From: Sulfuricurvum sp.
GTDB taxonomy: Bacteria; Campylobacterota; Campylobacteria; Campylobacterales; Sulfurimonadaceae
Direction of reading: 5' to 3'
Length of the DNA stretch: 64,000 bases
NCBI GenBank assembly: GCA_030693335.1
Contig: JAUYAU010000004.1
Location: 62,001 to 126,000, forward strand
Below the pieces are notes generated by a model. That model had not been told where the DNA came from, searched no databases, and saw only the letters and a program-made list of their open reading frames with translations. A program made the translations under genes and the position numbers. Below, one piece after another: positions 23,925 through 42,983 of the stretch (its first letter is position 1; the number at the start of each line of letters is the position of its first letter).

Positions 23925-26900
23925 TTATTCCAATCCTGCCATAATAGTTTCCAAAAGCGCAAGGGCTTCAGGCGTGTCAAATCGATCTATATGCCCTTTA
24001 AGCATACGCATATGCACCGTAAACTCTTCATCGGTATAATCACCAAAAATATCAAGTGCATCGGTATCAATATACGCTCCTGCTTCAATCTCTTTTTTCA
24101 GATTTTGCAATTTTACGGCCATCTGTAACGAATCCATCCGTTTTTTTCGTATCACGGGCCGGACTTCTTGCTTGAGTACTTTTTCAAATACCGCACATAC
24201 CTCTTGCATTGCTTTTTCCAAATTTACAAATTCCTTTTTGAGCGTGCTTTTATTCCCGTTCTTCGCTGAAAATTCGATCGTTTTTGCCAATGCCTGCAGC
24301 TGTTGTGCCGAGACATTCGCTGCCGATCCTTTGATCGAATGTGCGTGCAGCTGTATATTAGACAAATCAGCTTGCGCAATTGCCGTGCCAAGCGCACTGG
24401 TCATTCTGTGACCCTCATCCAAAAATGACTGTATGATTTTTATCAAGAGCTCTTTTTTACCGCCCAATCGCTTAAGCGCATCCGTTTCATCCCACAACTT
24501 AAGCTCTTGAACCTCTTTATCGATGGGCTTGGCTTTTGGCTTTCTTGGATGAACATTCGGCTCATCCGCGACAACGCTTCCCTTCAACCATTTCAGCAAC
24601 GCTGCCCTAAGCGTATCAATATTAATTGGTTTCGTCACATAATCACTCATCCCTGCAATAAGGCATTTTTCACGATCCCCTGCCATTGCATTGGCCGTCA
24701 TTGCGATGATCGGAATCTTTAGATATGCTTCTCCTGCTCTTCCCTCTCGGATTGCCGTTGATGCTGTATAGCCGTCCATTTCAGGCATTTGGCAATCCAT
24801 CAAAAGGAGCGTATAGGGTACGGTTTCCAACGCAAGCTGCATCGCTTCGAGCGCTTCTAAACCATTGCAAGCGACATCTGCTTCCAACCCGATCATCCCC
24901 AGCATACCCTGCGCTACGATCTGATTGGTAGTGTTGTCTTCGACCAATAAAATACGAATATCAGCTGGCCATTGAATCTGTGTATTCTCCTGAAGTGTCC
25001 CTAAATAATCCTTCGTTACAAGCGGAGTAGCCCCCTCAAGCGCCTCCCCCTCATCAAACAGTACTTTGAGCGCGTTGAGCAAATCTTTTGTCGTAGTGGG
25101 TTTGGCAAAGAATGCATCAAATCCGATTTGTGCAAAACGCTGCGCATCATTCCGTGACCCCAATGACGTCATCATAATCATCTTCATATCATCGCATTGA
25201 CGTATACTGCGTATCTCTTCCCCCAGATCCGCCCCATCCATGTTAGGCATCTGCATGTCCAACAGCGCTACATCATAAGGTGGGATATGCCCCTGTGCAA
25301 TACGGATCTGACAATAATCAAATGCAATGATCGGATCTTCAGCCTCATATACTTTCATTCCCCAGCTTTCCAACTGTGCTCGCACAACCGCACGATTCGT
25401 TTCATTGTCATCTACTACAAGAACAGATTTATCCGCAACCGACATACTGGGAATACTCAACGCCGATAGCTCACCCAATCCAACGCCGATATCTATATGG
25501 AAGGTACTCCCCTCATGCTCAACACTCGTTACCCAAATTTTTCCATCCATAATTTCGCACAGTTTCTTCACAATCGCCAGCCCCAATCCCGTGCCGCCAT
25601 ATTTGCGCGTTGTCGAATTGTCCGCTTGCGAAAACGTCTCAAACAATGAGTCAATTTTATCCGCGGAAATTCCGATTCCGCTGTCACGCACATTGATACG
25701 CAATCTTCCGTGATGAGCATCTACTTCATCCAATACTACACTGATGAAAACTTCCCCCCGATGGGTAAATTTGACCGCATTACCGACAAGATTTGTCAAT
25801 ATCTGGCGCAGACGTCCCGGATCGGTAATCACGCTACTGCGTGTCAGTTTCGTCGTATCCAGTATGAGTTCCAGCCCTTTTTCCTGGGCACTAAAAGCAA
25901 TTGCTTCAATAAATTCTCCCAGCTCATCGCGCAAATTGAACTCGATCATCTCAAGCTCCATTTTACCTGCTTCAACTTTGGAAAAATCGAGGATATCGTT
26001 AATGAGTCCCAGCAGTGAGTTTGCACTGTTAGAAGCAACACGCACTTGGTGACGTTGGGTATCATCCAAGTTTGAATGGGACAAAAGTCCAAGCATCCCA
26101 AGCACTCCATTCATAGGAGTCCTGATCTCATGGCTCATGGTTGCTAAAAACTCTGATTTTATCTGTGCAGAAGACTCCGCAGCCTCTTTGGCTATCAGCA
26201 TCTGCTGTTCGGCTTCTTTAAACAGGGAAACATTGCTTGCAATTCCCATATAACCGCTTGTCTTCCCATTTGCATCATACAATGCGGTCACATTCAAATA
26301 CACCGGAACTTCACTGCCGTCTTTGCACACATAGATCCACTCATGCGCATTAGGTAAATGCTTCTGTGCTTTAATTACAAATACCTTAAAGCCAGGCTCC
26401 ACAACCTCCCCTAACTCTTGGGAAAATTCTTTGGCTCTATAAACCACTTCCTCCAACTTGTGAAAAATAGCGGGACTTTCTTTGCCTATCAGCTCTTGGG
26501 CTTTATACCCAAGCATCTCTTCAGCCGCAGCGTTAAACCCTGTTATCATCCCCTCAATGTCCGTAGTAATGATCGCTACCCCGGCATTCTCAAAGATCGC
26601 TTTTTGAAGCTGCATCGCTTTGCTTAGAGAATCTTGAATGGCTTTACGTTCTGTAATATCGGTACGTATTGCAATATAACTCACAGGCTTTTTATGTTCA
26701 TCCATAAAAGGAACGATGGTTGTATCGACCCAATAATACGAACCATTCTTCGCCACATTACACACTTCGCCATGCCATATTGCACCATGACTCACCGTAT
26801 GGTACATCTCTTTCCAGTATTCTATTCCATGCAGACCCGAGTTAAGCAGCCGATGATTTTTTCCGATCAATTCATCACTTTTATAGCCGCTGATCTCTTC

Positions 26901-28271
26901 AAATTTGCTGTTTACAAAGGTAATTGTCCCCTTCACATCCGTAATGGCGACAATAGAATGGGCATCGAGGGCATATTTTTGTTCTTTGAGTTCATCGAGC
27001 GTCTTTTGTGCTTTTTGCGCCAAATAATTCAACTTCTCTTCATTATATTCTTGTTTCTCAATTAACGCATTAAAGACCGATCCAAGTTCTCCAATCTCAT
27101 TAGCAGCCTCCACCGATACATAAACCTCTTTAGTGCCGTTCATATATTGTTTGCTGGCCTCGGAAAGCAATTCAATAGGTTTCACAATACGTCTGGCAAT
27201 CATTATCCCTACAAAAACGACCACACCGGTAACAATCAAAGAAAAAATAATGATCATAGTAAACAAATGATTTGGGATAGCCAGTACCTCTGATTCGTCC
27301 ATTTCACTAATGTGTACCCATCGTATCCCCATTAGATTGATCGATCGGTGTTCCCCCAGAACTTTTTTCCCGTTTGGCCCTATATAAAAGCTTGCTTTTT
27401 CTGACATCCCATCAGGATATTGCCCGTGAATTCCATGTTCGTTATACCAATTCCAAAAAACTTTTGTACTGATTCGTCGCTTCAAAACTTCATCGGAATC
27501 CCCAACGGAACTGCGCAGTAACCCATCTGCTCCAACAAGGTATTGGCTTACTCCCTCTCTCTTATCCTTCAAAGAGTCAAAAAGAACATTCATATTCAAC
27601 TGTAACCCTATAATACCAACCATTTTGCCTGAATTATCCAAAATTGGCTGAGTAATAAATCCGGTCAATGCATCTGCTGAGGGAGCATAACGTTCAAGAT
27701 CTGAAAAATGAACTTTTCCATCTGCAAGACTTCTACGATACGTTTGAGCAAAACGGGTTTTAGAATACAGGCCATTTAAAAGATTTGTCCCTAAATCAGA
27801 TTCTTTTTTAATCGTATAGAGGATATTTCCCTCCAAATCGATTAAAAACAGATCGTACACATAGTCATACTCTTTTGAAAGTGTCAAAATTGTCTCTGGC
27901 TGATTTTTTATGAATTTTTCATACTCTTCACCGTGAATGAAGGAGTAAAGATTCTGGGAACTTTTAGTATAACGCTCATGCAACAAAGATAAAACGTCTT
28001 TAGGTGCTCTAAGCTGCGACCATATCCATAAATTTTTAGCGGCTCCATAAAAATTCTCATTGAGTGTTGCAACATTCAAAACAGCAGTGTTGGTAAGCTT
28101 ATTGCGCTGCATTTCGTCAACGCTTTTGACCGTATGTGCGTATCCATACCAGGCAATAATAACAACAGGAATAATACTCAAAGTCAAAAACCAAAACAAC
28201 AGCGTAAATCCTAAAGAACGGAATAGCTGTCTATTTATGGCTTTCACTTTGAGTATCATCTCTTGAATCAT
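23925..28271 (-). CDS. Giant hybrid histidine kinase (Cache-HAMP-PAS-PAS-HisKA-HATPase-REC-REC-Hpt)
   Basis: 1448 residues. Helices at about 15-40 and 335-357 enclose a dCache-type periplasmic sensor. Then come HAMP (about 358-410), two PAS domains (about 430-550 and 555-690), a HisKA with H714 in MSHEIRTPMNG, HATPase (NLVGNAVKFT, DSGIGIS, GGTGLGLAI), receiver 1 (from about 958, LLDMQMPNMDG), receiver 2 (from about 1107, LMDCQMPEMDG) and Hpt (about 1290-1370, LHAHSIKGSAAN). A C-terminal helical tail of about 60 residues is unassigned. BarA/TorS-type phosphorelay architecture. It overlaps the upstream binding-protein gene by 4 bases, suggesting that protein feeds ligand to the periplasmic sensor. 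Confidence 0.92.
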   Translation of the reverse strand: MIQEMILKVKAINRQLFRSLGFTLLFWFLTLSIIPVVIIAWYGYAHTVKSVDEMQRNKLTNTAVLNVATLNENFYGAAKNLWIWSQLRAPKDVLSLLHERYTKSSQNLYSFIHGEEYEKFIKNQPETILTLSKEYDYVYDLFLIDLEGNILYTIKKESDLGTNLLNGLYSKTRFAQTYRRSLADGKVHFSDLERYAPSADALTGFITQPILDNSGKMVGIIGLQLNMNVLFDSLKDKREGVSQYLVGADGLLRSSVGDSDEVLKRRISTKVFWNWYNEHGIHGQYPDGMSEKASFYIGPNGKKVLGEHRSINLMGIRWVHISEMDESEVLAIPNHLFTMIIIFSLIVTGVVVFVGIMIARRIVKPIELLSEASKQYMNGTKEVYVSVEAANEIGELGSVFNALIEKQEYNEEKLNYLAQKAQKTLDELKEQKYALDAHSIVAITDVKGTITFVNSKFEEISGYKSDELIGKNHRLLNSGLHGIEYWKEMYHTVSHGAIWHGEVCNVAKNGSYYWVDTTIVPFMDEHKKPVSYIAIRTDITERKAIQDSLSKAMQLQKAIFENAGVAIITTDIEGMITGFNAAAEEMLGYKAQELIGKESPAIFHKLEEVVYRAKEFSQELGEVVEPGFKVFVIKAQKHLPNAHEWIYVCKDGSEVPVYLNVTALYDANGKTSGYMGIASNVSLFKEAEQQMLIAKEAAESSAQIKSEFLATMSHEIRTPMNGVLGMLGLLSHSNLDDTQRHQVRVASNSANSLLGLINDILDFSKVEAGKMELEMIEFNLRDELGEFIEAIAFSAQEKGLELILDTTKLTRSSVITDPGRLRQILTNLVGNAVKFTHRGEVFISVVLDEVDAHHGRLRINVRDSGIGISADKIDSLFETFSQADNSTTRKYGGTGLGLAIVKKLCEIMDGKIWVTSVEHEGSTFHIDIGVGLGELSALSIPSMSVADKSVLVVDDNETNRAVVRAQLESWGMKVYEAEDPIIAFDYCQIRIAQGHIPPYDVALLDMQMPNMDGADLGEEIRSIRQCDDMKMIMMTSLGSRNDAQRFAQIGFDAFFAKPTTTKDLLNALKVLFDEGEALEGATPLVTKDYLGTLQENTQIQWPADIRILLVEDNTTNQIVAQGMLGMIGLEADVACNGLEALEAMQLALETVPYTLLLMDCQMPEMDGYTASTAIREGRAGEAYLKIPIIAMTANAMAGDREKCLIAGMSDYVTKPINIDTLRAALLKWLKGSVVADEPNVHPRKPKAKPIDKEVQELKLWDETDALKRLGGKKELLIKIIQSFLDEGHRMTSALGTAIAQADLSNIQLHAHSIKGSAANVSAQQLQALAKTIEFSAKNGNKSTLKKEFVNLEKAMQEVCAVFEKVLKQEVRPVIRKKRMDSLQMAVKLQNLKKEIEAGAYIDTDALDIFGDYTDEEFTVHMRMLKGHIDRFDTPEALALLETIMAGLE

Positions 28272-29170
28272 CGTCTTACCTCATTGAAATAAATCAATTC
28301 AGCAACAGGATAGTTCATTTCCTCTAGTTTTTTCTTCATTACTGGAGAAAGCGTTTCATTATTAATCCATCGTATGTTTGCGCGCATCTGTTCAAACTCC
28401 TCAAAACCTACATTATTGAGATAAGGCTTTACTGTTTTATAGAAAAGTTTTGGATTATTCTGATAAGAAGAAACGGCTTTATCCATAAGCGCTTTAAGTG
28501 TTTGCAGCTGTTTTTTATGTTGATTGTAAACCTGACGGGAAGTCATAAAAGAATCAACGACCACATAATGATCATTTTTACTGCTCGCAATCTCTTTGAA
28601 GCCTTGTTTTTTCAAAGCCAAATCATGAGGATTATAAGTTATCATAATAAAGGCCTCATTTGAATTTGGGTTGCCGACACGCTTAATTTCTTCTTGACTG
28701 CGATTATAAATCTTCATCTTATCTTTGGAAAGATTATGTTCTACGATTAAATAATTGAGCATATCTTCCCCCACTGTATCAAGCTCAACGTACACACTCA
28801 TCTTTGTATCCGGTTGAAGCAGCTGCTGGAGAGTGCGGTTTGAAAGGATGACGTCTCCCCCATAGGAGCGATCATAAATAATAACAGGGATGAGATCTTT
28901 ATGAAATTCTTTGAGCCGAAAATACTCATGCTCCGTACCCGTCACAACATCAGAGGCATTGGTCTCATACAAATTTAAATTTTCTTCAATTGAGCCCGCT
29001 TGAAGTATTTGAATATTAGCCTCTTTTAGCCATCCCGTTGCATGAGCATAGTACAAAGGGCTGGCTCCGATCCATGTGTCCACTGAAATCACAAGCGGTT
29101 TTTCCTCAACAGGGGCACATCCCCAGAAGATAAACATAGCACCCACTATCCCCGAGATCAAACCCTTCAT
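28268..29170 (-). CDS. Periplasmic substrate-binding lipoprotein (NMT1/SsuA-like), no transporter nearby
   Basis: 300 residues. The leader ends in the lipobox IFWGC (Cys near 18). The mature part ISVDTWIGASPLYYAHATGW...ILQAGSIEENLNL is like ABC-type binding proteins of the NMT1/THI5/SsuA group. No permease or ATPase gene is present; instead the gene is coupled by 4-base overlap to the giant kinase. I infer a sensory role (ligand presentation to the kinase). Ligand unknown. Confidence 0.8.
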   Translation of the reverse strand: MKGLISGIVGAMFIFWGCAPVEEKPLVISVDTWIGASPLYYAHATGWLKEANIQILQAGSIEENLNLYETNASDVVTGTEHEYFRLKEFHKDLIPVIIYDRSYGGDVILSNRTLQQLLQPDTKMSVYVELDTVGEDMLNYLIVEHNLSKDKMKIYNRSQEEIKRVGNPNSNEAFIMITYNPHDLALKKQGFKEIASSKNDHYVVVDSFMTSRQVYNQHKKQLQTLKALMDKAVSSYQNNPKLFYKTVKPYLNNVGFEEFEQMRANIRWINNETLSPVMKKKLEEMNYPVAELIYFNEVRR

Positions 29171-29404: not shown

Positions 29405-30724
29405 CTAAAAGTCAAATATATCATCGAGATCTTCGGCAGTGCTGGCATGATCAGCATCGTCCATGGTTAAAATACTCATAATGAGTTCGGCATTGGCAAC
29501 GATCGTATCATCCATAAAGTTCACCCTAGCAGCACCCTCAACGAAAATCATTTGTATCCACGTACTTAAATCACGCCCAAATGCAGCGCACATCGGTGCT
29601 ATATCAGTAGCTTTGTTTACAAATAAATCACGGTGACTGTCAATAATTCGTCCCATCGTCCCCAAAGCATGGCCGATAGAATAACTGTCCGTATATCCTG
29701 AAGCAATTCGGCCTATCTGCTGAAGATTATTGCTGATTTCATCCACCTCTTGATACTCAATCTCTCCGCCCACAATCATCATAAGAGAATTGAGCTTGCC
29801 CACATACTCCTTTAAATCCAGTAAATCTTCAGGGTCCATATAATCATACACCTGCATTGTTTCCACAACTGCTTTGTAGGCTGCCGCAGGAGCTGTAGAT
29901 TCAGGGACAACATTTGTTATCACTTCATTAACAAGCGCAACCGGTTGTTCAAGATTGGGACGCTTCACCGCAATGCTGATTTTTCCATCCCTTATTTTAT
30001 AATCAGTCACCGTTGGATTTTTTGCCATAACCAGTTTGATAATCTTCTCATCAACATCATCCAAGCCTCTAAGGGTGATGAACATGGTCTCCATCGATTC
30101 TTCGACAATTATCTGCAGCTTAACCCCTACTTTCAACCCGATAGATCCCAAAGCATATACGGTACGTATGGCGTCACTTAATTTCTCACAACGTTGGCTT
30201 GAATTGAGCAGATAATATTCCCAAAATTCTGCAAGCTCATCATCTTTTTCTACATAAAAGAGCAATTTACGGCTAAAAATTTCTTGTGTAAACAAATTTG
30301 CAGCGCTTGCATTATACTTTCTTGTCAATGTGTCCCGTGACTCAATCAACGATAAATAATTGCCTAAACGTGCCAAAAAGATATCTGCATTAATGGGCTT
30401 GTTGATATAGTCCTCAGCGCCGTTCCTGAGTATCTGTTGCTGACGTGCACCATCATCTACTGCAGATACGGCAACAATCATCGTTTTAGCATCTTGCGCG
30501 CGGATACGTTTGGTAGCTTCTATTCCATCCATCTCCGGCATCATGATATCCATAAAGATGAGATGAAAATGTTCATCTTGCACAATCAAAGAGGCTTCTA
30601 ACCCATTGACCGCTTCATGTATGTTGAAATCTATACCGTTGTCTTCAGCATAATCTTCCAAAAGTGCCCGTAAAAGCATTCGATTGTTTTCATTGTCATC
30701 AACAATAAGTATTTTAGTAATCAT
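29405..30724 (-). CDS. Response regulator with uncharacterised C-terminal half
   Basis: 439 residues. A receiver at 1-125 (ILIVDDNENN, phosphoacceptor in LIFMDIMMPEMDG, N-K-P). After it come about 300 residues without a family I recognise: an alpha/beta portion (about 150-260), a helical bundle (about 290-400) that could be Hpt-like but lacks a clear H-x-x-K-G, and an acidic tail ending L-D-D-I-F-D-F. The tail resembles the acidic-aromatic CheY-binding peptide of CheZ. Located directly after parA. Confidence 0.75.
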   Translation of the reverse strand: MITKILIVDDNENNRMLLRALLEDYAEDNGIDFNIHEAVNGLEASLIVQDEHFHLIFMDIMMPEMDGIEATKRIRAQDAKTMIVAVSAVDDGARQQQILRNGAEDYINKPINADIFLARLGNYLSLIESRDTLTRKYNASAANLFTQEIFSRKLLFYVEKDDELAEFWEYYLLNSSQRCEKLSDAIRTVYALGSIGLKVGVKLQIIVEESMETMFITLRGLDDVDEKIIKLVMAKNPTVTDYKIRDGKISIAVKRPNLEQPVALVNEVITNVVPESTAPAAAYKAVVETMQVYDYMDPEDLLDLKEYVGKLNSLMMIVGGEIEYQEVDEISNNLQQIGRIASGYTDSYSIGHALGTMGRIIDSHRDLFVNKATDIAPMCAAFGRDLSTWIQMIFVEGAARVNFMDDTIVANAELIMSILTMDDADHASTAEDLDDIFDF

Positions 30725-30743: not shown

Positions 30744-31487
30744 TTAATCTAATCGAGCCAAGAGCTCTTCCACAAAATAACGGTAATCTTTCACTCCGCG
30801 AGAACGTTCCTCATCCAAAACGACAGGATTTCCCCCTTCAAACTGTTTGGCCAGTTTAATATCAATCCCTATCCCTGAAAAGAGTTTTTCTTCACCAAAC
30901 TGTGTTCTAATTTTGGCAATGGCTTCACGATGTTCAGGAATATGGGCATTGACCATCACGGGTAAAATCCCCACTTCGGGTGTTTTTTGCGCATTGAGTG
31001 AGGCATTTTGATAGATGGCGCGTACCATTTGCCCCACAGCGACGACACCCAAATGATGCGGAACAAAAGGGATGACAACCGCATCGGCGACTTCAAGCGC
31101 ATTTTTAAGCAGTCCATCAAAAGTTGGAGGGGTGTCGATAATCACGTAATCAAAAAAATCATGGATCATCTCGCGGCGAAAACGGTTTTTGAGTACTCCT
31201 CGCAAATCTCCAAATTCATACACATCAAAAAACTCTTGTGCAGGGGCAAGAGTGAGCTGATCGTGTACCGTGTGCACAAACGTCTCACTGAGAGTTTTAC
31301 CTACAAAAATTGAATGCGCGCCATTATCCTCTGAAGCTTCGCAGCCTACTCCCAGTGAAGCATGTCCTTGAGTATCAAAATCGATCAATAGCACCGATCC
31401 TATTTTCGCCAGTTCGCAGGCAAGATTTACCGAAGTAGTCGTCTTTGCCGATCCCCCTTTACGATTTGAAACAACGATTGTTTTCAT
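30744..31487 (-). CDS. parA: ParA/MinD-family ATPase of the chemosensory cluster
   Basis: 247 residues. Deviant Walker A KGGSAKTTT (K10, K15), switch I region DFDTQGHASLG and Walker B VIIDTPPTFD are all present, as in ParA proteins that form ATP-dependent dimers on the nucleoid. No parB is next to it. Other ParA homologues inside chemotaxis operons (Rhodobacter PpfA, Vibrio ParC) position receptor arrays. Its stop/start overlaps the upstream CheW gene by 4 bases. I infer a role in partitioning or placing this array. Confidence 0.88.
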   Translation of the reverse strand: MKTIVVSNRKGGSAKTTTSVNLACELAKIGSVLLIDFDTQGHASLGVGCEASEDNGAHSIFVGKTLSETFVHTVHDQLTLAPAQEFFDVYEFGDLRGVLKNRFRREMIHDFFDYVIIDTPPTFDGLLKNALEVADAVVIPFVPHHLGVVAVGQMVRAIYQNASLNAQKTPEVGILPVMVNAHIPEHREAIAKIRTQFGEEKLFSGIGIDIKLAKQFEGGNPVVLDEERSRGVKDYRYFVEELLARLD

Positions 31488-31912
31488 GCTGCCTCATCAT
31501 GCGGAAGCTTAACGGAATCGATAACAACAACTAACGACTGTTTGTACTCAACAACACCGCGTGTGAGTAAGTACTCCCCTACTGTAACGCAATGCGCGTA
31601 TGGTTTAATATGGGAGGGTTCAAATGCGGTAATATCTTTAATTGTGTCTACTTTAATAGCAAACACCCCTTTGTTATCCCGGTAAATCAAAAGTTTTTGA
31701 GCACTCAATGCCGGTTCTTCCCCATACGCATTGGTCATTTTTCTAAAATTGATTACTTTGAGGGTATTGTTCTGATACATCATTATCCCATCCACAAAAG
31801 GATGAGCATTGGGAACAGGTGTCAATAATGGAACCTGATCTATACGTTCTATGTTGCTCACATCCAATGCGTAATGCGCTTCATTACTCGTGAAAATGAT
31901 AAAATCGCTCAC
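31484..31912 (-). CDS. CheW-like coupling protein 1
   Basis: 142 residues, single CheW SH3-like domain. Conserved features: FIIFTSNEAHYALDV, PNAHPFVDGIM and VINFRKM. CheW links receptors to CheA. It is clearly paralogous to the CheW at 32198-32632, with the STAS gene between them. Confidence 0.88.
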   Translation of the reverse strand: MSDFIIFTSNEAHYALDVSNIERIDQVPLLTPVPNAHPFVDGIMMYQNNTLKVINFRKMTNAYGEEPALSAQKLLIYRDNKGVFAIKVDTIKDITAFEPSHIKPYAHCVTVGEYLLTRGVVEYKQSLVVVIDSVKLPHDEAA

Positions 31913-31928: not shown

Positions 31929-32198
31929 TTACGCGCAATGCATTTCGGTTATTTCAAACCCTTCACACAGTTTTTGATACAGCTTGAGATCATCACCATA
32001 CAAAAAGTTTGCACCATACAACTTTTTGTACCCCAAAATGAGCTGTAAAACACCTAAATGAATATCATCACATGCACTAAAATCAACCGTAATTTCAGCA
32101 GGTGAAGTAAGCTGTAAGAAATCACGTAAAGAAACGATCTCATCTTCATAGACAACCCCGCTAAACGTTACCGTATTATTTTCCATCAATGTTGCCAT
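31929..32198 (-). CDS. STAS-like small protein
   Basis: 89 residues. The pattern E-I-T-V-D-F-S-A-C-D-D-I-H-L-G-V-L-Q-L-I-L-G-Y fits a STAS/MlaB fold (beta strand, turn, helix). The usual Ser/Thr after the Asp is replaced (D-I-H-L), so a phosphorylation switch is unlikely. It is located between two CheW paralogues and shares one base with the upstream one. Proposed protein-protein adaptor; inference. Confidence 0.65.
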   Translation of the reverse strand: MATLMENNTVTFSGVVYEDEIVSLRDFLQLTSPAEITVDFSACDDIHLGVLQLILGYKKLYGANFLYGDDLKLYQKLCEGFEITEMHCA

Positions 32199-32632
32199 TA
32201 TACTTTCTCCTTCATCGGCAATGATACCGATTTAATAACGTTCACAAGCCGATTGTCGACCTCAACCACCCCATCTATTTCTACAAAACCCTCATTTGCT
32301 TCAAGTTTGTCAACGTGTTTGAGGGTTGAGCAATCGAGATTCTTAATATCTTCTATCTGATCCACTTTGATACCAAAGAATGCATTTTGCGTTTGATAAA
32401 TTAGTAGCTTTTGAGATTTGCCCGTCGTAGTTTCTTGAAAATTTTCCATCCCCATCATGCTTCGAAAGTTTACCACTTTGATCACGCGATCTTCATAGGA
32501 CATCATCCCCTCAACCATAGGGTGTGCATTGGGAATAGCCGTTACAAACGGAACTTGAATAATCCGCTGTATCGATGCGACACTGAGAGCATAATAGTTA
32601 TCACCTATAGTAAAGATAATATAATCTTCCAT
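32198..32632 (-). CDS. CheW-like coupling protein 2
   Basis: 144 residues, one CheW domain (YIIFTIGDNYYALSV, PNAHPMVEGMM, VVNFRSMMG). It lies immediately downstream of cheA (14 bases) and is the more likely dedicated coupler. Paralogue of the 31484 gene. Confidence 0.9.
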   Translation of the reverse strand: MEDYIIFTIGDNYYALSVASIQRIIQVPFVTAIPNAHPMVEGMMSYEDRVIKVVNFRSMMGMENFQETTTGKSQKLLIYQTQNAFFGIKVDQIEDIKNLDCSTLKHVDKLEANEGFVEIDGVVEVDNRLVNVIKSVSLPMKEKV

Positions 32633-32646
32633 CTTAATTCCTTTAC

Positions 32647-35400
32647 TTAACTAGCAATACGATGATCGCTTTTGAGTACCGTCGATATTCCTAAAATGCC
32701 TATCGGATCGATTGCCATAATGATTTGCCCATTCCCCAATAATGCTGTACCGCTGAAAATAGGGTGACCTTCCATAATCCCCTCAAGCGGTTTTTGAACC
32801 ACATCTAACTGACCTAACAGCTCATTAACGACAACAGCGAGAAGGTTTCCTTTGATATTTAGCACCACCACAGGAAGTGCTTTGTTGGTCAGCGCTTCTT
32901 CATCCAGCATGTTTTTCGCGAACAGCAACGGAATGACTTCGCCGCGTAAATAAATAAATGGCTCGTTTTGCAAATACTCTATTTGAGTAGGTTCGATTTT
33001 AACCGTTTCGGAAACTGAATCCATTGGGAATCCATAATGAACCCCGCTCATAGTCACATGCAGTAATGAAGTAACGGCAAGCGATACCGGGATTGAGAGA
33101 TAAATCGTCGTTCCTTGATTGGGTACCGTCTTGATACGGATCGTTCCGCCAAATCCTTCGATTGATTTGCGTACAACGTCCATTCCGACACCCCGACCGC
33201 TGTATTCACTGATCGTTTCTGCCGTTGAGAGACCCGGAAGCATGACCAATGCCGCTTTTTCATCATCATTCATAGCTTCCACTTGCTCCAGCGTCAGCAG
33301 CTCTTTTTCAAGCACCTTTTGAACCACACGGCTAATATTGATCCCTGCGCCGTCATCACGTATTTCAATGATGATTTTGTCCGATTGCGCATAGGCATTA
33401 AGCGCTATGTGCCCTTCCGGATTTTTCCCTTTTTGAATACGAATTTCCGGCATTTCAATCCCATGATCCAAAGAGTTTCGCATAATATGGATCATTGGAT
33501 CAGCAAGCATTTCAATCATATTTTTATCGAGTTTTGTTTCCCCTCCGTCCATGCTCAAGGTCACTTTTTTATTCATATTTTTAGAGATATCGCGTACCAG
33601 TTTTGGATAGCGGTCAAACACATACGAAATCGGCAGCATGCGCATCGACATAATCAAATCTTGCAATTGCTCGGCTAAGCGGTTGATAAACGTGTATTTT
33701 TCCATAATCGCACGCTTGATCACTTCTCCTGTCATTTTATGAACACCATCCGCCAAATACGGGAGGGAGTTTTTAGCCACCAAAAGTTCTCCGACAACGT
33801 TCATCAAATGATCAATCGATTCCTGATCGACTTTGACCGTTTTGCCGATGACTCCCTTTTTGTTGCTGGCTAACTGATTGTCTGAATCAGCGCGTTCTAC
33901 CACACTTGAGACTACAGGAACCACCTCAGAGGCTTTTGCAACAGGTTCACTGTAGGACTTAACCTCTGCAGGTTCCGCTGCCATTACAACTACTGCTTCA
34001 ACGCTAGGGGTTTTAGATACTGTAACAGGTTCTTGAACAGCTGTATTTTGTTCATCATTTATTTCACAGCGCAACCAATTGATCAAGGCTTCTTTTGAGC
34101 TAAAACTGCTTGGCATATCGCAAATATACGGTTTAAGGTTGTTTTCTAAAATCGACATTACCCGTGCTTGGGATGCGTCATCATTCACCATCTCCAATGT
34201 TTGAAGCTGCTGTGTCAGAATCGCTTTTAGCTGTAGGCGCTCTACCTCATTGATTTCTATCGTTTCGCAGACTGCATTAGGTGTACATACTGCCTCTACA
34301 CTTGGTGCATTATCAAGCAAAGCATTATGCACATACACGTTCCCCTGAGGCAACTGTGCAAAAAACGATTTCAACAAGCCCAAATCACTATCTTTGATTG
34401 TATTAAGTACCTCATCAAAACGTCGCAGCTGCATACTTTGAAGCGTATCTCGTCCAATTAACGGCAACGTATTATGAATCTTTTCACTGATTTCTAAACG
34501 GTTGTGTGCGTCAATAGCTCCGCTGCACTCCGCTGAAAGTTCTTTCAGAACATCCAATGTATGCCCGGCTTCACCCTCGTTAATCTGCAGTAACGTCACA
34601 ATATCAAGCGGAACAAAGCTAAGCTCATCGATGAAATTAAACAGTGCATCGCTGATCTCTTCATAGGTTGCATAAACAAATGCCGTCATACTCAAACGAA
34701 GCAACAATCCATCCGGATCATCAAAACCGGATAAAAGTGCTTTTGACGCATTTTCACCCATGCATGCATGAATTCCTAGAACCTTATCTCCAATAAGAGA
34801 AAGAGTATAGAGAGGATCATTTCCATACACCATGCACGATTCATCTAAATCAAAGACAATGGCATACAGCTGTTCCTTGGCACAAAACTCCTCATCAATA
34901 TCGCCCACTTTAAAGGGAATTTTTTGGTTGAACTGTCGTAAAAACGGCATTGGGATATTGACAATACGTTCAACATCGCTTGCCAATCGAAACGGGCACG
35001 ACCACACGTGCACTTCAATCGTTTTCCCCATGAGCCCACTGAGCTCTTGCGCAATTTGATCGATACGTGACTCATCCGCTTCGACAATGTCACCGCACTC
35101 TTCGGCAGCTTCAATGAGGTTAACCACTTCATCAAATGCATTAAACAAAGATTCAACCATAACGGGTTTAAACTCAAGTTTTCCTGCACGCAGCATGTCC
35201 AATAAATCTTCGGCATGATGGGTAATGCGTTTGACCGCTTCAAACCCTACGATTCCGGAGCCCCCTTTGAGCGTATGGGCAGCACGAAAAACCGAGTTTA
35301 ACAACTCCGGATCATCTCCTCCGATGTTTTCAATGTTTTGGTCAATAAACGCCAAATTTTCTCTGGCTTCCAATAAAAATTGTTCGAGTAGCGGATTCAT
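32647..35400 (-). CDS. cheA: Chemotaxis histidine kinase CheA
   Basis: 917 residues. An N-terminal Hpt (P1) with H42 in AAHTLKGGSG; a long middle region (about 130-540) with no sure domain, including an Ala/Val/Pro-rich linker near 465-530; P3 dimerisation (about 550-610, VGELLVAKNSLPYL); P4 kinase domain (MRNSLDHGIE, DDGAGI, SGRGVGMDVV); and P5 CheW-like end (about 780-910). There is no fused receiver; free CheY genes follow upstream and downstream. It phosphorylates CheY/CheB in response to the receptors of the cluster. The middle region is longer than in E. coli CheA (654 residues). Confidence 0.95.
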   Translation of the reverse strand: MNPLLEQFLLEARENLAFIDQNIENIGGDDPELLNSVFRAAHTLKGGSGIVGFEAVKRITHHAEDLLDMLRAGKLEFKPVMVESLFNAFDEVVNLIEAAEECGDIVEADESRIDQIAQELSGLMGKTIEVHVWSCPFRLASDVERIVNIPMPFLRQFNQKIPFKVGDIDEEFCAKEQLYAIVFDLDESCMVYGNDPLYTLSLIGDKVLGIHACMGENASKALLSGFDDPDGLLLRLSMTAFVYATYEEISDALFNFIDELSFVPLDIVTLLQINEGEAGHTLDVLKELSAECSGAIDAHNRLEISEKIHNTLPLIGRDTLQSMQLRRFDEVLNTIKDSDLGLLKSFFAQLPQGNVYVHNALLDNAPSVEAVCTPNAVCETIEINEVERLQLKAILTQQLQTLEMVNDDASQARVMSILENNLKPYICDMPSSFSSKEALINWLRCEINDEQNTAVQEPVTVSKTPSVEAVVVMAAEPAEVKSYSEPVAKASEVVPVVSSVVERADSDNQLASNKKGVIGKTVKVDQESIDHLMNVVGELLVAKNSLPYLADGVHKMTGEVIKRAIMEKYTFINRLAEQLQDLIMSMRMLPISYVFDRYPKLVRDISKNMNKKVTLSMDGGETKLDKNMIEMLADPMIHIMRNSLDHGIEMPEIRIQKGKNPEGHIALNAYAQSDKIIIEIRDDGAGINISRVVQKVLEKELLTLEQVEAMNDDEKAALVMLPGLSTAETISEYSGRGVGMDVVRKSIEGFGGTIRIKTVPNQGTTIYLSIPVSLAVTSLLHVTMSGVHYGFPMDSVSETVKIEPTQIEYLQNEPFIYLRGEVIPLLFAKNMLDEEALTNKALPVVVLNIKGNLLAVVVNELLGQLDVVQKPLEGIMEGHPIFSGTALLGNGQIIMAIDPIGILGISTVLKSDHRIAS

Positions 35401-35414
35401 ATGTTGTCCTTGAT

Positions 35415-35780
35415 TTAAACTTTTAACAAGAGCTGCAAATACCCTTTCAGAGCATCGGGCTTAATAGGTTTGGTTTCGAAAAGATTGGCACCTACTTTAA
35501 ACGCTTCGAGTTTGTCCGTTGCTGCCATTTGTATTGTGATCATGATAACAGGAGTAAAGCGGCGCATTGGCTGCTGACGTAATTCACTCACAAATGAGTA
35601 ACCGTCCATAACCGGCATATTCACATCTACAAGATACAAATCCACATTATTGTCCAATGATTTTTCAAGTGCTTCCATCCCATTTTCTGCTTCAAGCACT
35701 TCTACACCTAAATCTTTTAGAATAGAGCCATGATAACTCCGCACTGTTTTTGAATCGTCCACTACCATTACTGTTGCCAT
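35415..35780 (-). CDS. CheY-type response regulator 1
   Basis: 121 residues, a lone receiver. D8, D9 and phosphoacceptor D52 (in YLVDVNMPVMDG) and the Lys in ETKPI are present. It lies next to cheA, between it and the CheZ-like gene. Confidence 0.92.
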   Translation of the reverse strand: MATVMVVDDSKTVRSYHGSILKDLGVEVLEAENGMEALEKSLDNNVDLYLVDVNMPVMDGYSFVSELRQQPMRRFTPVIMITIQMAATDKLEAFKVGANLFETKPIKPDALKGYLQLLLKV

Positions 35781-35789
35781 TTCATGCTC

Positions 35790-36182
35790 CTAAAAAAACT
35801 CTATTCCGTCATCATCGTCTTCACGATTCACTTTTCCGCTAAATGCACTGTGTTTCTGTTTTGCTTTCTCAAGCGCATTCGTCAATTTTCCGTGCATTTT
35901 TTCAATGCTTTGCGCTGCAATCGCATCATCCTCGCTAAAAGCATGCATAAAATACTGCATATGTTCCTGCGCACTCTCAATAGCTTCTATCGTCGCACTT
36001 AACTGTTGCGCAATGATGTCTTGATACTGCATCGCTTCGAGCGTTTCATCATCTACGCTTAAACCGTTTTTATCAAGGAAGCGGACAAATCGTAACTGTG
36101 CCTCTTGTGTTAGTCCAATGGTCTCGCGTTCCACGTTTTTAACATGTTCCAATAATCCATTAAGAGTATGTAAGAATTGCAT
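35790..36182 (-). CDS. CheZ-like CheY phosphatase (candidate)
   Basis: 130 helical residues. The segment MQYQDIIAQQL gives Q54-D55-x3-Q59, the same spacing as the CheZ catalytic D-x3-Q in FQDLTGQ. The C-terminus D-D-D-D-G-I-E-F-F resembles the acidic-aromatic CheY-binding tail of CheZ. It is smaller than E. coli CheZ (214 residues), like the remote CheZ proteins known in this phylum. Its position between two cheY genes fits. Function is inferred from motif and context. Confidence 0.65.
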   Translation of the reverse strand: MQFLHTLNGLLEHVKNVERETIGLTQEAQLRFVRFLDKNGLSVDDETLEAMQYQDIIAQQLSATIEAIESAQEHMQYFMHAFSEDDAIAAQSIEKMHGKLTNALEKAKQKHSAFSGKVNREDDDDGIEFF

Positions 36183-36192
36183 CTTGATTGAC

Positions 36193-36564
36193 TTATGCTA
36201 AGCGCAATACTCTAGAAATTGCCTGCTTAAGCTGTGCCGGGTTGAATGGTTTTACCACCCAGCCCGTCAATCCAAGAGCTTTTCCCTGTGCTTTGAGTTC
36301 ATCGCGTGTTTCAGTTGTAAGCATCAATACCGGAGTGCGAGCCGTACTTGGAACCTGACGAAGTCCCTGTAAAAACTCAAATCCGTTCATAACAGGCATA
36401 TTCATATCCGTAATAATCAAATCAGGAACCATCCCCCCTTTGATTTCATTGAGTGCATCAACCGCAGATAAATATTGCTTTACCTCAATAGGCATTGAAT
36501 CCGTAACCATCCGAGTGGATGCTAAAGCGGTCTCACTGTCGTCTACAAATATTACTAATGGCAT
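36193..36564 (-). CDS. CheY-type response regulator 2
   Basis: 123 residues, a lone receiver with D8, D9, D53 (LIITDMNMPVMNG), a Thr in MLTTET and the Lys in VVKPF. Paralogue of the 35415 gene. Having two CheYs in one cluster suggests one output and one phosphate sink. Confidence 0.92.
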   Translation of the reverse strand: MPLVIFVDDSETALASTRMVTDSMPIEVKQYLSAVDALNEIKGGMVPDLIITDMNMPVMNGFEFLQGLRQVPSTARTPVLMLTTETRDELKAQGKALGLTGWVVKPFNPAQLKQAISRVLRLA

Positions 36565-36583: not shown

Positions 36584-37414
36584 TTATTTTTGATAAATTA
36601 ATGTGGAATCAATTTTTTTGGCCTTAAACACCGAAGTGATACGGCTCATATATTCAGCATGACCCAATAAAACATAACCATTTGGGTTAAGCATATCGTA
36701 AAAGGTCATTGCAACTTCTTTTCGGCTGGCATCATCAAAATAGATCAGCATATTACGTGAAAAAATTACATCAAATTTTCCCAACTTTCGCATATCCCCT
36801 CTATCGAAGACATTGGATACTTTAAAATCAACTGTGCCGATAAGATCATCAATGAGATCATAACCCAACGTCCGTTTTTTAAAATACTTAGCCAATACCT
36901 TCGGAGGTATCGCATGGACTGAACGGTCAGAGTATTTGCCCAATTTGGCTTTTTCAATAACCGTACTGTCAATGTCAATACCTACAATTTCGATATCACG
37001 TTCTTCGACAATACGCGCTTCTTCGAGAATGTGCAATATCATCGAATAGGGTTCTTCCCCCGTAGAACTTGGTGCAGATAAAATCCGCAAAGCCTGCCCT
37101 TTTGGTTTTATTTCATGCAGTTCCGGCAAAATTCGCTCTACTAAAACCTCAAACTGCTCTTTCTCACGATAAAAATAGGTTTCATTAACCGTCATCCCAT
37201 TCATAAGTGCTTGAAACTCTGCGCCATCTTTATCATCAAAACGCAAGGTGTAAAAATATTTACGGAAGGAATCAGCTCCGATTGCTTTACAACGTGTTTC
37301 TATGTACTTGGAAAGTTTGTCAAAATGTTTGTCAAGTTCCAAGTATATTCCCGCTTTACGATAAATGTAATCGGTCATCTTGTAAAAATTTTCTTCTGAT
37401 AAAAGAGCTTCCAC
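36584..37414 (-). CDS. cheR: Chemoreceptor methyltransferase CheR
   Basis: 276 residues. N-terminal helical domain, then the SAM-binding domain with LSAPSSTGEEPYS (usual form S-A-A-C-S-T-G-E-E-P-Y-S), IVGIDIDSTVIEKA and FDVIFSRNMLIYFD. It methylates receptor glutamates for adaptation, using SAM. With CheB in the same run, an adaptation system is complete. Confidence 0.95.
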   Translation of the reverse strand: MEALLSEENFYKMTDYIYRKAGIYLELDKHFDKLSKYIETRCKAIGADSFRKYFYTLRFDDKDGAEFQALMNGMTVNETYFYREKEQFEVLVERILPELHEIKPKGQALRILSAPSSTGEEPYSMILHILEEARIVEERDIEIVGIDIDSTVIEKAKLGKYSDRSVHAIPPKVLAKYFKKRTLGYDLIDDLIGTVDFKVSNVFDRGDMRKLGKFDVIFSRNMLIYFDDASRKEVAMTFYDMLNPNGYVLLGHAEYMSRITSVFKAKKIDSTLIYQK

Positions 37415-37416: not shown

Positions 37417-38043
37417 TTACCCCCGAATACTGCGAATGGCATTATCGATTGCGAAATCGGCATACGTATCATTAAAACGGCTTTTGACTGTTTCGAGCAA
37501 GGGAATGTCCTCCATTTCACCAATCTCGGCCATATAGTCCACAGCCGTCATTGCCACATTGATGTCGCTTTCATTTTCTAGAAGCTCAATGAGCATATCA
37601 CGAGATTGGGCAAAATTAACATCACCCAAAACATTGATCGCAAAAATACGCAAATCACGATCATCTCCAATCAAAAATTTCACAATATAATATTTGATTG
37701 CATCGCCATAGCTTTGAAGCGTTGTGATCCCCAGATTGCGAATGTATGCATTACGTACTTTGAGCAGTCCCATAATCGATTCGATAGGAGCACGACTTCC
37801 CTCCATTTTAGAAAGAGTGGCGGCAATTTTACTTGCCATGTCTTTATGGACATACGGGCTATCTATCAAAAGTTTAACCAACTCTTCTCCGCCGCCATCG
37901 AACATTTCAATTTGCTCTATTGCATAGCCTTGCTCATCAAATTTTTCATCATTAGCATGATAATATTCTACCGCCTCTTCTAATCTTGAAAACTCTGGAA
38001 GCTCTTCAACAACCTGCTGTATGTGTTTTTTTACCAGTGCCAT
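37417..38043 (-). CDS. HEAT-repeat protein of the chemosensory cluster
   Basis: 208 residues, all-helical, with HEAT-like repeats (LLIDSPYVHKDMASKIAATL, LKVRNAYIRNLGITTLQ, LIGDDRDLRIFAINVLGDV, LENESDINVAMTAVDYMAEI). Such proteins act as scaffolds. It lies between cheR and cheB with very short spacers. The role in the array is unknown. Confidence 0.82.
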   Translation of the reverse strand: MALVKKHIQQVVEELPEFSRLEEAVEYYHANDEKFDEQGYAIEQIEMFDGGGEELVKLLIDSPYVHKDMASKIAATLSKMEGSRAPIESIMGLLKVRNAYIRNLGITTLQSYGDAIKYYIVKFLIGDDRDLRIFAINVLGDVNFAQSRDMLIELLENESDINVAMTAVDYMAEIGEMEDIPLLETVKSRFNDTYADFAIDNAIRSIRG

Positions 38044-38053: not shown

Positions 38054-39112
38054 TTAGCGTAGTGTTTGAAGCGCTCTTACAATCTTAGGGAACGGGAGCT
38101 GCTGGGATACTCCCCCTCGATCATAAGCTTCTTTTGGCATTCCATAAACCGTTGCCGTCTCTTCGCTCTCACCAATGGTGAATCCTCCTGCTTGCTTGAT
38201 CGCAACCATACCACTCGCACCGTCATCACCGATCCCTGTCAATAAAACCCCTACAATCTGATCACCTGAAAATACTTTGAGCGCACTCATAAACATTTCA
38301 TCAACGCTGGGCTGAAAAAAACGGTTTCCTTTCTTTTTCTCCTCACGGATAACCACTCTTCCGGTCACTTTTTTAGCAAAGTGCATGTGAACTCCGCCAC
38401 GTGCGAGATAAATATTACCGGGGTAAAGTTCCATATGATCTTTTGCTTCTATAACCGGCAAAGTACTGTTTTTGTCCAATCGAGTTGCGAATGCTGCGGT
38501 GAACTGCTCGGGCATGTGCTGAACAATACAAACGGCGTAACCAAACGATGAGGGCAATGCCGTACAAATCTGTTCAATAAGCCCAGGTCCGCCTGTTGAT
38601 GCGCCAATCAATAATATTTTGGTTACATCTGCAGTTGATTTATTTTCCAAACGTGTCGCTTCCCGAACACTTTGCGGACGTTCACGTACAACACTGCGCC
38701 GTGTCATTGTTTTCAAACGTCGCGGCGGAATACGACTGAGAGACTTAACTTTTTGGACGATATCTTCTGAGTTTTCACTGCGCCCTACATTCATCGTTCC
38801 GGGTTTTGAAATATAGTCAACAGCACCTGCATCAAGTGCTTCCATTGTAATTTGAGCACTTTCAGTCGTCAAAGAACTGATCATCAAAATCGGGGTTGGG
38901 CGTACTTCCATGATCTTACGAACAGCGGTAAGACCATCCATAATCGGCATATTAATATCCATTGTAATAACATCGTATTGACTGGCAAGCGCTTTTTCAA
39001 CCGCTTCGGCACCATTACGTGCCGTGTCAATCTCAAATCCAAGCTCGGCTATAATCTCTGTTATTTGTTTTCTAACCAATGCCGAATCATCTGCTATAAG
39101 GATTCTTTTCAT
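38054..39112 (-). CDS. cheB: Chemotaxis protein CheB (REC-methylesterase)
   Basis: 352 residues. A receiver (ILIADDSAL, ITMDINMPIMDG) is followed by the CheB esterase with the Ser in GASTGGP, His in QHMPEQF and Asp in TGIGDDGASGM. It demethylates or deamidates receptors when phosphorylated. It overlaps the triple-CheW gene by 4 bases. Confidence 0.96.
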   Translation of the reverse strand: MKRILIADDSALVRKQITEIIAELGFEIDTARNGAEAVEKALASQYDVITMDINMPIMDGLTAVRKIMEVRPTPILMISSLTTESAQITMEALDAGAVDYISKPGTMNVGRSENSEDIVQKVKSLSRIPPRRLKTMTRRSVVRERPQSVREATRLENKSTADVTKILLIGASTGGPGLIEQICTALPSSFGYAVCIVQHMPEQFTAAFATRLDKNSTLPVIEAKDHMELYPGNIYLARGGVHMHFAKKVTGRVVIREEKKKGNRFFQPSVDEMFMSALKVFSGDQIVGVLLTGIGDDGASGMVAIKQAGGFTIGESEETATVYGMPKEAYDRGGVSQQLPFPKIVRALQTLR

Positions 39113-40485
39113 GCAGCGCCTTCCAATACTTGTGAAATATTACGGTTAAACAGCAACACCAGCCGTTTTCCTTCATCTAAATGAATAACATTCGAAAAAA
39201 GCCCATCACCGCTCTCTTCCTCTCTCATCTGTGCCGGATCAATCGACAGAACATCGCTTACCGTATTTACAAAAAATCCAATTCGTCCTTTTGGGGCATG
39301 ACAAATAATAATTTTCTGATCTCCATGTGTAGGAATTTTTATCCCCAAGCGTTTATGCAAAGAGCCGATGGTCACAATCTGCCCTCGTATGTTGATGATT
39401 CCGTCTACCATTTCAGCAGCATTTGCCACCGGAGTGACAGGAGTCATATCAATAATCTCTGCAACCTCTTCGATACTAAAGGCATACTCTTCATTTCCGA
39501 GTTTAAAAATCACTACTTCCACCATCTCAACTGCATTCTCGCTCACCGCTGCAACGTCATTGGAAACAACAATATCATTGTTTCGCTCCAACAAAGATTC
39601 AATAGCGCTGTTTGAGACAAGAGAGATAAGCTTATCTCCATTATGTATTACACCGGCAATGCGTTTATCATCATTGCTTGTCCCCAGTGAATCCAAATCG
39701 GCTTTTGAGAACTCATGAATGTCCACAATTTCATCAATCATCAATCCCAATGTTTTATTGTGCATCTGAACGATCATGATGCGATTCTTTTCTCCTGGCT
39801 TGGGTTGAAATCCGTAAAAACGGCGTAAATCAGCAATAACCACAAGTTCTTCGCGTAAAGACATCATGCCGATAATTTCATCATTTGAACCCGCCATGGC
39901 GGTAATAGTGACATCTGCATTCAGAATCTCTCTCAAGTCATCAATAGGGAGTGCATATTCTTCTGCTCCCATTTTAAAAACGAGATAACGGCTTTTATCT
40001 TCCACTTTTATGGATGATTCTGTGTCATAGCGGCTTTTCTCTGACACCACTTGAGCTGCTACCTTCACGGATCGAATCGCTGCGATAACGTACTCCAGAC
40101 TGACAACCTGAATCAGCATATCTTCATAATGAACAATGGCGATAATCGCCTCATCCACAACATCCAGATACTCAATTTTTTGTTGATCGATCGTCAAAGA
40201 AACCGTTACTTGATCCACAAGCAATGCCAATGTGTTCATCTCATTATTCAATGTGATAACCCGATTTTTCTGATCCAAGGCGCTGCAAGGCGTAAGACCC
40301 AATAAAAGGTTAAAATCCAATAAGGTAACAATCCCTCCGCCAACGGCACATAAGCCGCGGACTTCATAAGGGCTCAATGCCAAGCTCGTAATATCCGGGA
40401 CACGAAGAATTTGACCAATCAACGCAGTGGAAATACCAAATGAAACCTCATTATGGCGAATAATCAAAATCTCTTCGATAAGCAT
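39109..40485 (-). CDS. Triple CheW-domain coupling protein
   Basis: About 458 residues made of three CheW domains: about 1-140, 165-305 and 325-458, each with a Y/F-A-L/F-x-I strand and a G-x-I/M-x-x-R-x-x-x-V block. ATG 40485 is chosen: GGGG lies eight bases upstream, just past the receptor stop; the longer frame extends into the receptor gene. Such polyvalent CheW proteins can cross-link receptor or CheA assemblies. It follows the receptor gene directly. Confidence 0.88.
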   Translation of the reverse strand: MLIEEILIIRHNEVSFGISTALIGQILRVPDITSLALSPYEVRGLCAVGGGIVTLLDFNLLLGLTPCSALDQKNRVITLNNEMNTLALLVDQVTVSLTIDQQKIEYLDVVDEAIIAIVHYEDMLIQVVSLEYVIAAIRSVKVAAQVVSEKSRYDTESSIKVEDKSRYLVFKMGAEEYALPIDDLREILNADVTITAMAGSNDEIIGMMSLREELVVIADLRRFYGFQPKPGEKNRIMIVQMHNKTLGLMIDEIVDIHEFSKADLDSLGTSNDDKRIAGVIHNGDKLISLVSNSAIESLLERNNDIVVSNDVAAVSENAVEMVEVVIFKLGNEEYAFSIEEVAEIIDMTPVTPVANAAEMVDGIINIRGQIVTIGSLHKRLGIKIPTHGDQKIIICHAPKGRIGFFVNTVSDVLSIDPAQMREEESGDGLFSNVIHLDEGKRLVLLFNRNISQVLEGAA

Positions 40486-40489
40486 GGAA

Positions 40490-42373
40490 TTACCCCTGTT
40501 GAAGTTCATCCGCCATGACAGCGAGTTCTTCAACGCCTTCGCCAATATGGCTTACCGTTTCAATAATCAGTTCACTGGCTTTACGAGATTCCTGTGCATT
40601 GCGCGCTGAAAGTTCAACTGCTTTTTGAATCTCACTAATACCGATAAGTCCTTGATTAAGACCCTCAATGTTTTGATCATTGATTGTTTTAAGACCCGTA
40701 AAGCGATCAAGTAAATCAATCAGCATGGTAGTGATTTTATCGATTTCGTGAATCAATGTTCCAATTTGCTCTTTTTCACCCTCTTGATTGATCAACAGCT
40801 TAAGCCAATCCGTACGAACAGTATCAATTTCTGCATTCATGGATTCGATCGTATCATTGATCTTCTCGGTATTGGATTCGGAATCTTTGGCCAAATTACG
40901 GATATCCGCACTAACAACCGCAAATCCTTTACCAAAATCACCTGCACGCGCCGCTTCGATCGAACCGCTGATTGCCAACATATTAAGCTGGATAATGCTG
41001 TTAGAGATACTGCCAACCGTTTTATCAACGTTACGTGTCTCTTTAACGATCACATCAAGCTCGCTGCTTGCGCTGCTGCCCTCTGCTATTGAATTGACAA
41101 AATCTTGACTGATTCCATTCATTTGACCTTTCACATCCGCAAATGATGTTTTCAGCAAGTCAAAGTTACGACGTGCAATTTCGATAAGTTTGCTGATGTC
41201 TTTGGATGCAGCAAGACCGCTCTCAAACAGTTCTTTATTTAAAATAGCACTTTGGTTTGTTGCTTGAGAAGAGGCTTCGATTTGATTTAATCCGCTTGTT
41301 ACTTCTTTGAGAGAATTTTGGATGTCGTCCATCGATGAACTGATAGCATCTGCAGATGCCGCTATCTCTTCGGCCGATTTCATCGTATCCGTTGAAAATT
41401 TAAGCTCTTCGGAAAGATTATTGAGTTCTTTAATATCCTCTTCGGTTTGAACCAGTGAGTTGCTTTGCATTTCGATACTGTTGAGGGTTTTTTCAACGGA
41501 TTTTGCAATCTCACTGGATGCATCTGCGATTTCTTTTGACCCGTCATTGATCTGCACAACAGAATGACCGAGGCTTTGAGTATAGCTGCTCATATTACGG
41601 GCCGCTTCTACCGAGTAAACCGCGATCTTGGTAAGTTCCTCCATTTTAAAACTCAGAGAGGAACCGCGTCCGCCGGTTTGCTCAATAATACCTGTTGTAC
41701 TGGTAATACTTTTGATGATATTATCGATACTTTCTTGGATTTTATTGACCAAATTCGAAATAAAATCGGCATTCTTTTCAGATTCACCCGCAAGCGCACG
41801 TGTTTCATCCGCTACAACTGCAAACCCTTTTCCATGCTCTTTTGCACGGCTGGCTTCGATAGCGGCATTAAGCGCCAAAAGGTTCGTTTGATCCGCAATT
41901 TTTGCGATAAATCCAACCGCCTCTCCGATATTCTCAGAAGAAATTTTTAGCTCTTCCGATTTAGTAGATGATGTTTTAGCAACATTCACCGCCTGCGACA
42001 TACGCGCAACCGAGGTGTTGATCGTGCCAACTGCTCCCATGATGTTATCACCCGTTACAAGTGTTGAGGAGATAACCGTATCAATACTGGTCGTCATACG
42101 CCCGATATTGGAGTTGATAGCCCGTACATTTTTAAGCGCCTGCTCACTTGCCCCGCTGTTTTCCTCTGCCGCTGTCGCGATTTGTTCCATCGAGCTCTTG
42201 AGTTGCTCAATCGCACTTACGCTCTCTTGCGCGTTACCCAAAATAGTCGTAGCTACTCCGGCGATACTTTCTGATATTTGTTGCTGTTTTGCCAAAGTAC
42301 GCTGACGTCTCTTGTCTGGGCTAACGCTTCCTACTGCTGCGGGTGCATGCTCTGTTCGTCTTACTAGTGCCAT
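40490..42373 (-). CDS. Soluble double-tip chemoreceptor (DosM-like MCP)
   Basis: 627 residues with no transmembrane helix and no sensor domain. It has two chemoreceptor signalling tips: residues about 160-200 ([19 protein letters not shown]...[11 protein letters not shown]) and about 455-495 ([28 protein letters not shown]), joined by coiled coil. The N-terminal 30 residues are basic (R5, R6, K21-R23, R25, K29). Vibrio cholerae DosM, with two signalling domains, stabilises cytoplasmic arrays; this protein has the same design. Adaptation sites are likely, given CheR/CheB. The input probably comes from the PAS protein encoded just upstream. Confidence 0.9.
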
Positions 42374-42811: not shown

Positions 42812-42983
42812 TGTTAACCCCTTCAATTAAAAACCTTAATAAAAGGTAGCATAGCGGTATCTATCTGAAGAAAAACTTATTATCGATAAAAAAGAATTCT
42901 TTATGTTAAAAGAGATTTAATAGTGCCCTAAAATAACAATGCATATTCATCATAGATAGGCAATTATTTTAATCTAAAAATAT

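Follow-up and report, generated by a model that had tools for sequence, protein, structure and literature searches.

Few experimental cases, namely, PpfA, McdA, and PomZ, underlie what is known about the inheritance of cytoplasmic cargos made only of protein. The sandwich arrays formed by the F9 chemosensory class are well known in structure and poorly understood in function. PpfA, which partitions the TlpT clusters of Rhodobacter sphaeroides, is, like the protein studied here, a ParB-less ParA encoded in a che operon and accompanied by a soluble receptor. That such ParA proteins occur in che operons has already been published, as has the idea that they partition cytoplasmic clusters; 77 of 206 species were reported to have PpfA homologs in che operons, 86% of these with a putative cytoplasmic receptor (PMC2829493). 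CheOp3 of R. sphaeroides encodes a split kinase (CheA3/CheA4) together with the receptor TlpT, with DosM and CheW3 unmentioned (PMC3964821). The likeness of our protein to PpfA is drawn here from description. The F6 system of Vibrio, which has ParC and ParP, also includes a ParA-like ATPase in a che operon, and its CheA possesses an extra LID domain (PMC7534058). F6 arrays are membrane-bound and polar.

The hallmarks of the F9 class are a triple CheW and DosM, a receptor with tandem signaling domains (PMC9321776). The F9 array of Vibrio cholerae (cluster I), compared here by description, has the double-tip receptor DosM and the triple CheW (PMC7534058 and PMC9321776), as does the locus analyzed here. 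A limited search of the available parts of these two papers found no mention of a ParA, either for cluster I or for F9 arrays in general, whereas in our locus the ParA gene adjoins cheA and cheW. In this study, we describe a ParA clade dedicated to F9 operons, the slot that it stably keeps across phyla, its presence in only part of the F9 systems, and an accompanying CheA insert, for which a limited literature search found no earlier description. Because some F9 systems have ParA and others do not, they offer a natural comparison for asking whether and how ParA positions the array and which protein takes the role of ParB.

ParA in the F9 operon of Sulfuricurvum

The window, that is, the whole 64,000-nucleotide stretch of Sulfuricurvum sp. 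DNA that was analyzed, includes the features listed in Table 1. The operon around parA is a complete F9-class system, with DosM, triple CheW, CheA, CheY, CheB, and CheR all present. The ORF and translation check showed that parA is intact; its start codon overlaps the stop codon of the upstream cheW gene (ATGA), and 20 nt separate its own stop codon from the following gene. This 4-nt overlap and the short gap place parA on the same transcript as the che genes. Pfam scans of the neighboring genes detected no ParB domain in the operon. The sole ParB of the genome (C11:26744-27019) lies on another contig, next to the chromosomal Soj (C11:27131-27895), which has 33% sequence identity to the operon ParA. 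An earlier note on this DNA had described a ParA without ParB inside a chemosensory operon, and that description holds. The 130-residue protein encoded between the two CheY-type receivers resembles a minimal CheZ phosphatase, with the motif QYQDI(I/V)(S/A)QQL and the C-terminal IEFF conserved among relatives.

Table 1. Coordinates of ParA and the surrounding F9 chemosensory operon in the window
Feature	Positions	Strand	Remarks
Response regulator RRx439, alpha/beta and helical C-terminal part, C-terminal DDIFDF peptide	29405-30724	-	After ParA in most Campylobacterota operons
F9-associated ParA ATPase	30744-31487	-	247 aa, ATG start; KGGSAKT Walker A, DFDTQGHA signature
Single-domain CheW, 4-nt overlap with parA	31484-31912	-	Pfam
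Single-domain CheW	32198-32632	-	Pfam
F9 CheA, 917 aa, long P1-P3 region	32647-35400	-	Pfam; residues about 270-350 are the candidate ParA-associated insert
CheY-type receiver	35415-35780	-	Pfam
CheZ-like 130-aa protein	35790-36182	-	Motif (LQYQDIIxQQL, C-terminal IEFF); no Pfam match
CheY-type receiver	36193-36564	-	Pfam
CheR	36584-37414	-	Pfam
HEAT-repeat protein, conserved F9 operon member	37417-38043	-	Pfam and operon comparison
CheB	38054-39112	-	Pfam
CheW3, three concatenated CheW domains (F9 hallmark)	39109-40545	-	Three CheW stretches (Pfam); PMC9321776
DosM-type soluble receptor, 627 aa, two signaling tips, basic N-terminus	40490-42373	-	MCPsignal stretches; aligned with DosM-type receptors of F9 operons
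PAS-domain protein heading the operon	42383-42826	-	Pfam and operons of relatives

The ParA protein matched Pfam AAA_31 (E 2.1e-30) and has a deviant Walker A motif, NRKGGSAKTTT, in which the signature lysine is present. The ParA/MinD fold, the signature lysine, and the catalytic Asp assign it to the ParA superfamily. The best solved-structure matches to its AlphaFold model (pLDDT 89) were Soj/ParA proteins, with VIA Z values of 31 to 33 over about 240 residues; Helicobacter pylori Soj (VIA Z 32.0 to 6iub) shares the fold, the Walker motifs, and most DNA-contact positions. No MinD-type membrane-targeting C-terminal helix follows the last helix of the fold in the model.

The DNA-contact lysines of HpParA are K199, K227, K230, and K247, and N45 reaches the gamma-phosphate via water (PMC11229316). 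Among 50 F9 ParA proteins, the signature lysine, the Walker lysine, and the catalytic Asp were invariant (50/50), the equivalents of K199, K230, and K247 were basic in 40, 34, and 35 proteins, respectively, and 44 had an additional basic residue in an SRG motif. The K227 equivalent was non-basic in every Campylobacterota F9 ParA, as were the residues that commonly occupy this position in the proteobacterial proteins, and the equivalent of R189 in Bs Soj was His in the Campylobacterota proteins. DNA binding is thus plausible from the sequence, with three of the four HpParA contact positions mostly basic and K227 lost. In addition, His replaces the Asn equivalent to N45 of HpParA (QxN to QxH). 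The collection scan picked ParA proteins by QGHA and SNRKGG patterns, so the conservation of these patterns is partly by construction; QxH was also kept in the ParA proteins reached via DosM instead (L207, L208, L226, L252, and L254-L256). F9 ParA differs from chromosomal Soj, to which it is about 33% identical, in the QxH motif, the lost K227 equivalent, and the lack of ParB.

Phylogeny and distribution of the F9-associated ParA

In a maximum-likelihood tree of 76 rows covering F9-type ParA, Soj, ParC, plasmid ParA, and MinD/FlhG, all ParA proteins from F9 operons and four orphans formed a single clade with 100/100 support and a long stem. Soj, plasmid ParA proteins, MinD/FlhG, and ParC, whose rows were identified through CheB- and CheW-type neighbors, fell outside this clade. 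The Campylobacterota ParA proteins made up one subclade, the sister of which was from a deltaproteobacterial MAG. F9 operons have a dedicated ParA clade with a stable slot across phyla. This separate clade rules out a stray plasmid or chromosomal ParA. An ordinary partition ParA captured by chance would suit the Soj fold and the identity of about 30-33% to Soj, but with a distinct 100/100 clade, the same operon slot across phyla, and no parB adjoining parA, it has a negligible probability.

The earlier note had suggested that ParA and the soluble receptor together partition the array at division. F9 ParA groups neither with plasmid or chromosomal ParA nor with the ParC and MinD-like families, and its gene is conserved together with that of the receptor, as seen from the Campylobacterota genomes that have both and from the F9 operons shared across phyla. 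Because the clade is separate and conserved with the receptor gene, PpfA-like partitioning of the array is the best reading.

Close ParA orthologs (66-98% identity) were patchy among 61 genomes of the family, in which the 33%-identical Soj was nearly universal. Among 397 Campylobacterota genomes, 10 had ParA, 11 had DosM, and 9 had both. The operon order PAS-DosM-CheW3-CheB-HEAT-CheR-CheY-CheZlike-CheY-CheA-CheW-ParA was kept in the Campylobacterota relatives, usually with the long response regulator next. ParA was within the che operon at 23 of 24 loci (L043-L066), and the remaining locus was at a contig edge; in permuted operons, ParA still adjoined CheA or DosM. Two Campylobacterota genomes (G184 and G430) had DosM without F9 ParA, possessing only a Soj-type ParA, and their DosM proteins were more divergent (38-41%).

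Scanning the F9 ParA alignment against 84,980 species genomes gave 80 loci. Of the best 42 (L085-L126), 38 were inside F9 operons from alpha-, beta-, gamma-, and deltaproteobacteria, a Zixibacteria MAG, and Campylobacterota, and in most F9 operons of these 42 loci the ParA slot was after CheA or CheA-STAS. The other four loci comprised two in genomes with DosM elsewhere and two in genomes in which DosM was not found. In the former two (L109 in G436 and L120 in G1428), the F9-type ParA stood apart from the DosM operon of the same genome; counting G256 (L067) from Campylobacterota with G1426 (L107) and G1427 (L110), DosM was not found in three genomes with an F9-type ParA. The best ParA matches among 72,556 plasmids came from two F9 operons, one on Methylosinus pOB3b1 and the other on a Methylobacterium plasmid, and both occupy the slot after cheA. 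Several che frames are broken in the pOB3b1 operon of Methylosinus trichosporium (L079), and ParA is intact. F9 operons on plasmids of Sphaerotilus, Eleftheria, and Azospirillum had no ParA within the operon.

Sampling through DosM, blind to ParA, detected an F9-type ParA in 5 of 11 resolvable proteobacterial genomes (present in G454, G715, G888, G1056, and G555; absent from G467, G761, G488, G1073, G1388, and G1181). L230 and L211 were counted as having ParA, since a whole-genome search located it just beyond the extracted region. Because only 5 of these 11 genomes have it, ParA is optional in F9 systems, a module that is nevertheless positionally stable.

Candidate adaptors of ParA

Several proteins that activate ATPases of the ParA type do so through a basic extension at the N-terminus, a feature that TlpT shares (PMC7993993). 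The basic residues that the earlier note listed for the receptor (R5, R6, K21-R23, R25, and K29) are all there. The first 30 residues of DosM have a net charge of +5, tied for the highest of the 57 ORFs in the window (mean -0.4, sd 2.8). DosM opens with a few basic residues (MALVKK), which are followed by a variable linker and then by a conserved (K/R)xRTLAKQQ stretch. Wherever the N-terminus could be read, the DosM of ParA-containing systems had the motif (K/R)xRTxA(K/R)QQ intact; so did 7 of the 14 DosM proteins from systems without ParA, the other seven of which form one clade. The basic N-terminal motif is thus a general, core feature of DosM, and because it is equally intact in several systems without ParA, it does not qualify by sequence as a ParA peptide. 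We accordingly dropped the N-terminus as a ParA-specific peptide; the tie between the ParA lineage and the double-tip receptor system stands, whereas the receptor N-terminus gains no specific support as the partner. The confinement of motif degradation to one clade without ParA is compatible with a role as a ParA partner.

The basic tail of DosM might instead bind the nucleoid directly, as the N-terminal basic tail of FrzCD binds DNA without sequence specificity (PMC5716589), with ParA merely modulating this or acting on something else. In favor of this, the N-terminus is basic in systems with ParA and in many without it; the explanation does not account, however, for why the ParA clade tracks F9 operons, and the motif is conserved in sequence (RTLAKQQ) beyond mere basicity. 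We consider it improbable.

A second candidate is an insert of about 100 residues before the P3 domain of CheA, which was found in 46 of 46 systems with ParA versus 2 of 14 without. The P1-P3 span was 436-531 residues in all 46 of the former and 249-392 in 12 of the latter 14 (Fisher p 6.5e-11, uncorrected for relatedness). When relatedness was corrected on a CheA P3-P5 tree, five independent ParA contrasts gave three in the same direction, none in the opposite direction, and two with no difference (p 0.25), and the association is therefore only suggestive. The difference in span is largely the helical insert: an HMM of the proteobacterial insert matched the long CheA proteins of systems without ParA and not the short ones. 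Against Campylobacterota CheA, this HMM matched weakly at the right place (E 0.24-6), a level at which homology is not established. L212, which has no ParA, kept a 70-residue equivalent of the insert despite a short total P1-P3 span.

On these sequence comparisons, the CheA insert is the candidate better correlated with ParA than the DosM N-terminus is. From general array architecture, the insert would sit on the outer sides of the sandwich, and both ends of DosM would lie between the two baseplates. We tentatively propose, as a possibility that we do not hold to be likely, that CheA itself is the ParB-like adaptor. In this view, its helical insert, about 100 residues long and located after P1/P2 and before P3, would lie on the array's outer face, couple to the ParA subfamily, and tend to be lost after ParA is lost. 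Such a link would be the F9 equivalent of LID/ParP/ParC, built with a different ParA.

Two neighboring products were rejected as partners. The CheW adjacent to ParA is a bare CheW domain without the extra domain of a ParP-type adaptor, the insert of its relatives being CZB, and the STAS-like ORF before ParA also occurs in operons without ParA. In most Campylobacterota relatives, this CZB zinc-binding domain is inserted in the fold of the ParA-adjacent CheW (for example, L044:4418-5203 and L045:7995-8819); the CheW proteins of the window have no CZB insert.

Proposed role of ParA and the flanking genes

Because ParA is ParB-less and the same subfamily recurs at the same operon position across phyla, it probably helps to divide the array between daughter cells. 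By analogy with PpfA, we regard nucleoid-based positioning and inheritance of the F9 array as its probable function, with considerable room for doubt. A ParA-ATP dimer would bind the nucleoid non-specifically, and an array protein acting as adaptor, either the DosM N-terminus or the CheA insert, would stimulate ATP hydrolysis and release ParA locally. The array would then move along, or be spaced over, the nucleoid and be split between the daughters, as PpfA does for the R. sphaeroides clusters. Counting against this reading are the loss of the K227 equivalent, the His at the R189 equivalent, the dispensability of ParA (6 of 11 genomes sampled through DosM, in addition to G184 and G430), and the three ParA-containing genomes in which DosM was not found.

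The ATPase could also act like ParC, anchoring or maturing the array at the pole or another fixed site with no movement over the nucleoid. ParC of F6 arrays is likewise a ParA-like ATPase from a che operon (PMC7534058; PMC5706961), the basic residue equivalent to K227 of HpParA is missing in F9 ParA and ParC alike, and the co-occurrence of the CheA insert and ParA parallels the F6 CheA LID, a domain reported exclusively from systems with ParC and ParP (PMC7534058). Nevertheless, the ParC rows lie outside the F9 ParA clade, the window has no ParP-like CheW bearing a ParC-interaction domain, and F9 arrays are cytoplasmic and not membrane-bound (PMC7534058). Polar targeting of this kind seems unlikely to us, though worth keeping in mind.

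A further alternative to array partitioning is that ParA serves RRx439 or some other cargo. RRx439 comes next after ParA in most Campylobacterota operons, and G256, the lone ParA-only Campylobacterota genome, keeps the genes for ParA, a hybrid kinase, and RRx439 together at L067. However, no RRx439 was seen in proteobacterial F9 operons, and the permuted operons L062 and L066 keep ParA without it, which makes this role very improbable.

In 24 of 24 aligned relatives, RRx439 ends in DDIFDF (DDIFNF in one) after a variable linker, and LvrC of Leptospira is its best structural match. Two further minus-strand ORFs lie downstream of the array operon: a 300-residue ORF (28268-29170) with no Pfam match, which reads like a periplasmic substrate-binding protein, and a 1448-residue hybrid kinase (23925-28271) with Cache, PAS, receiver, and Hpt domains.
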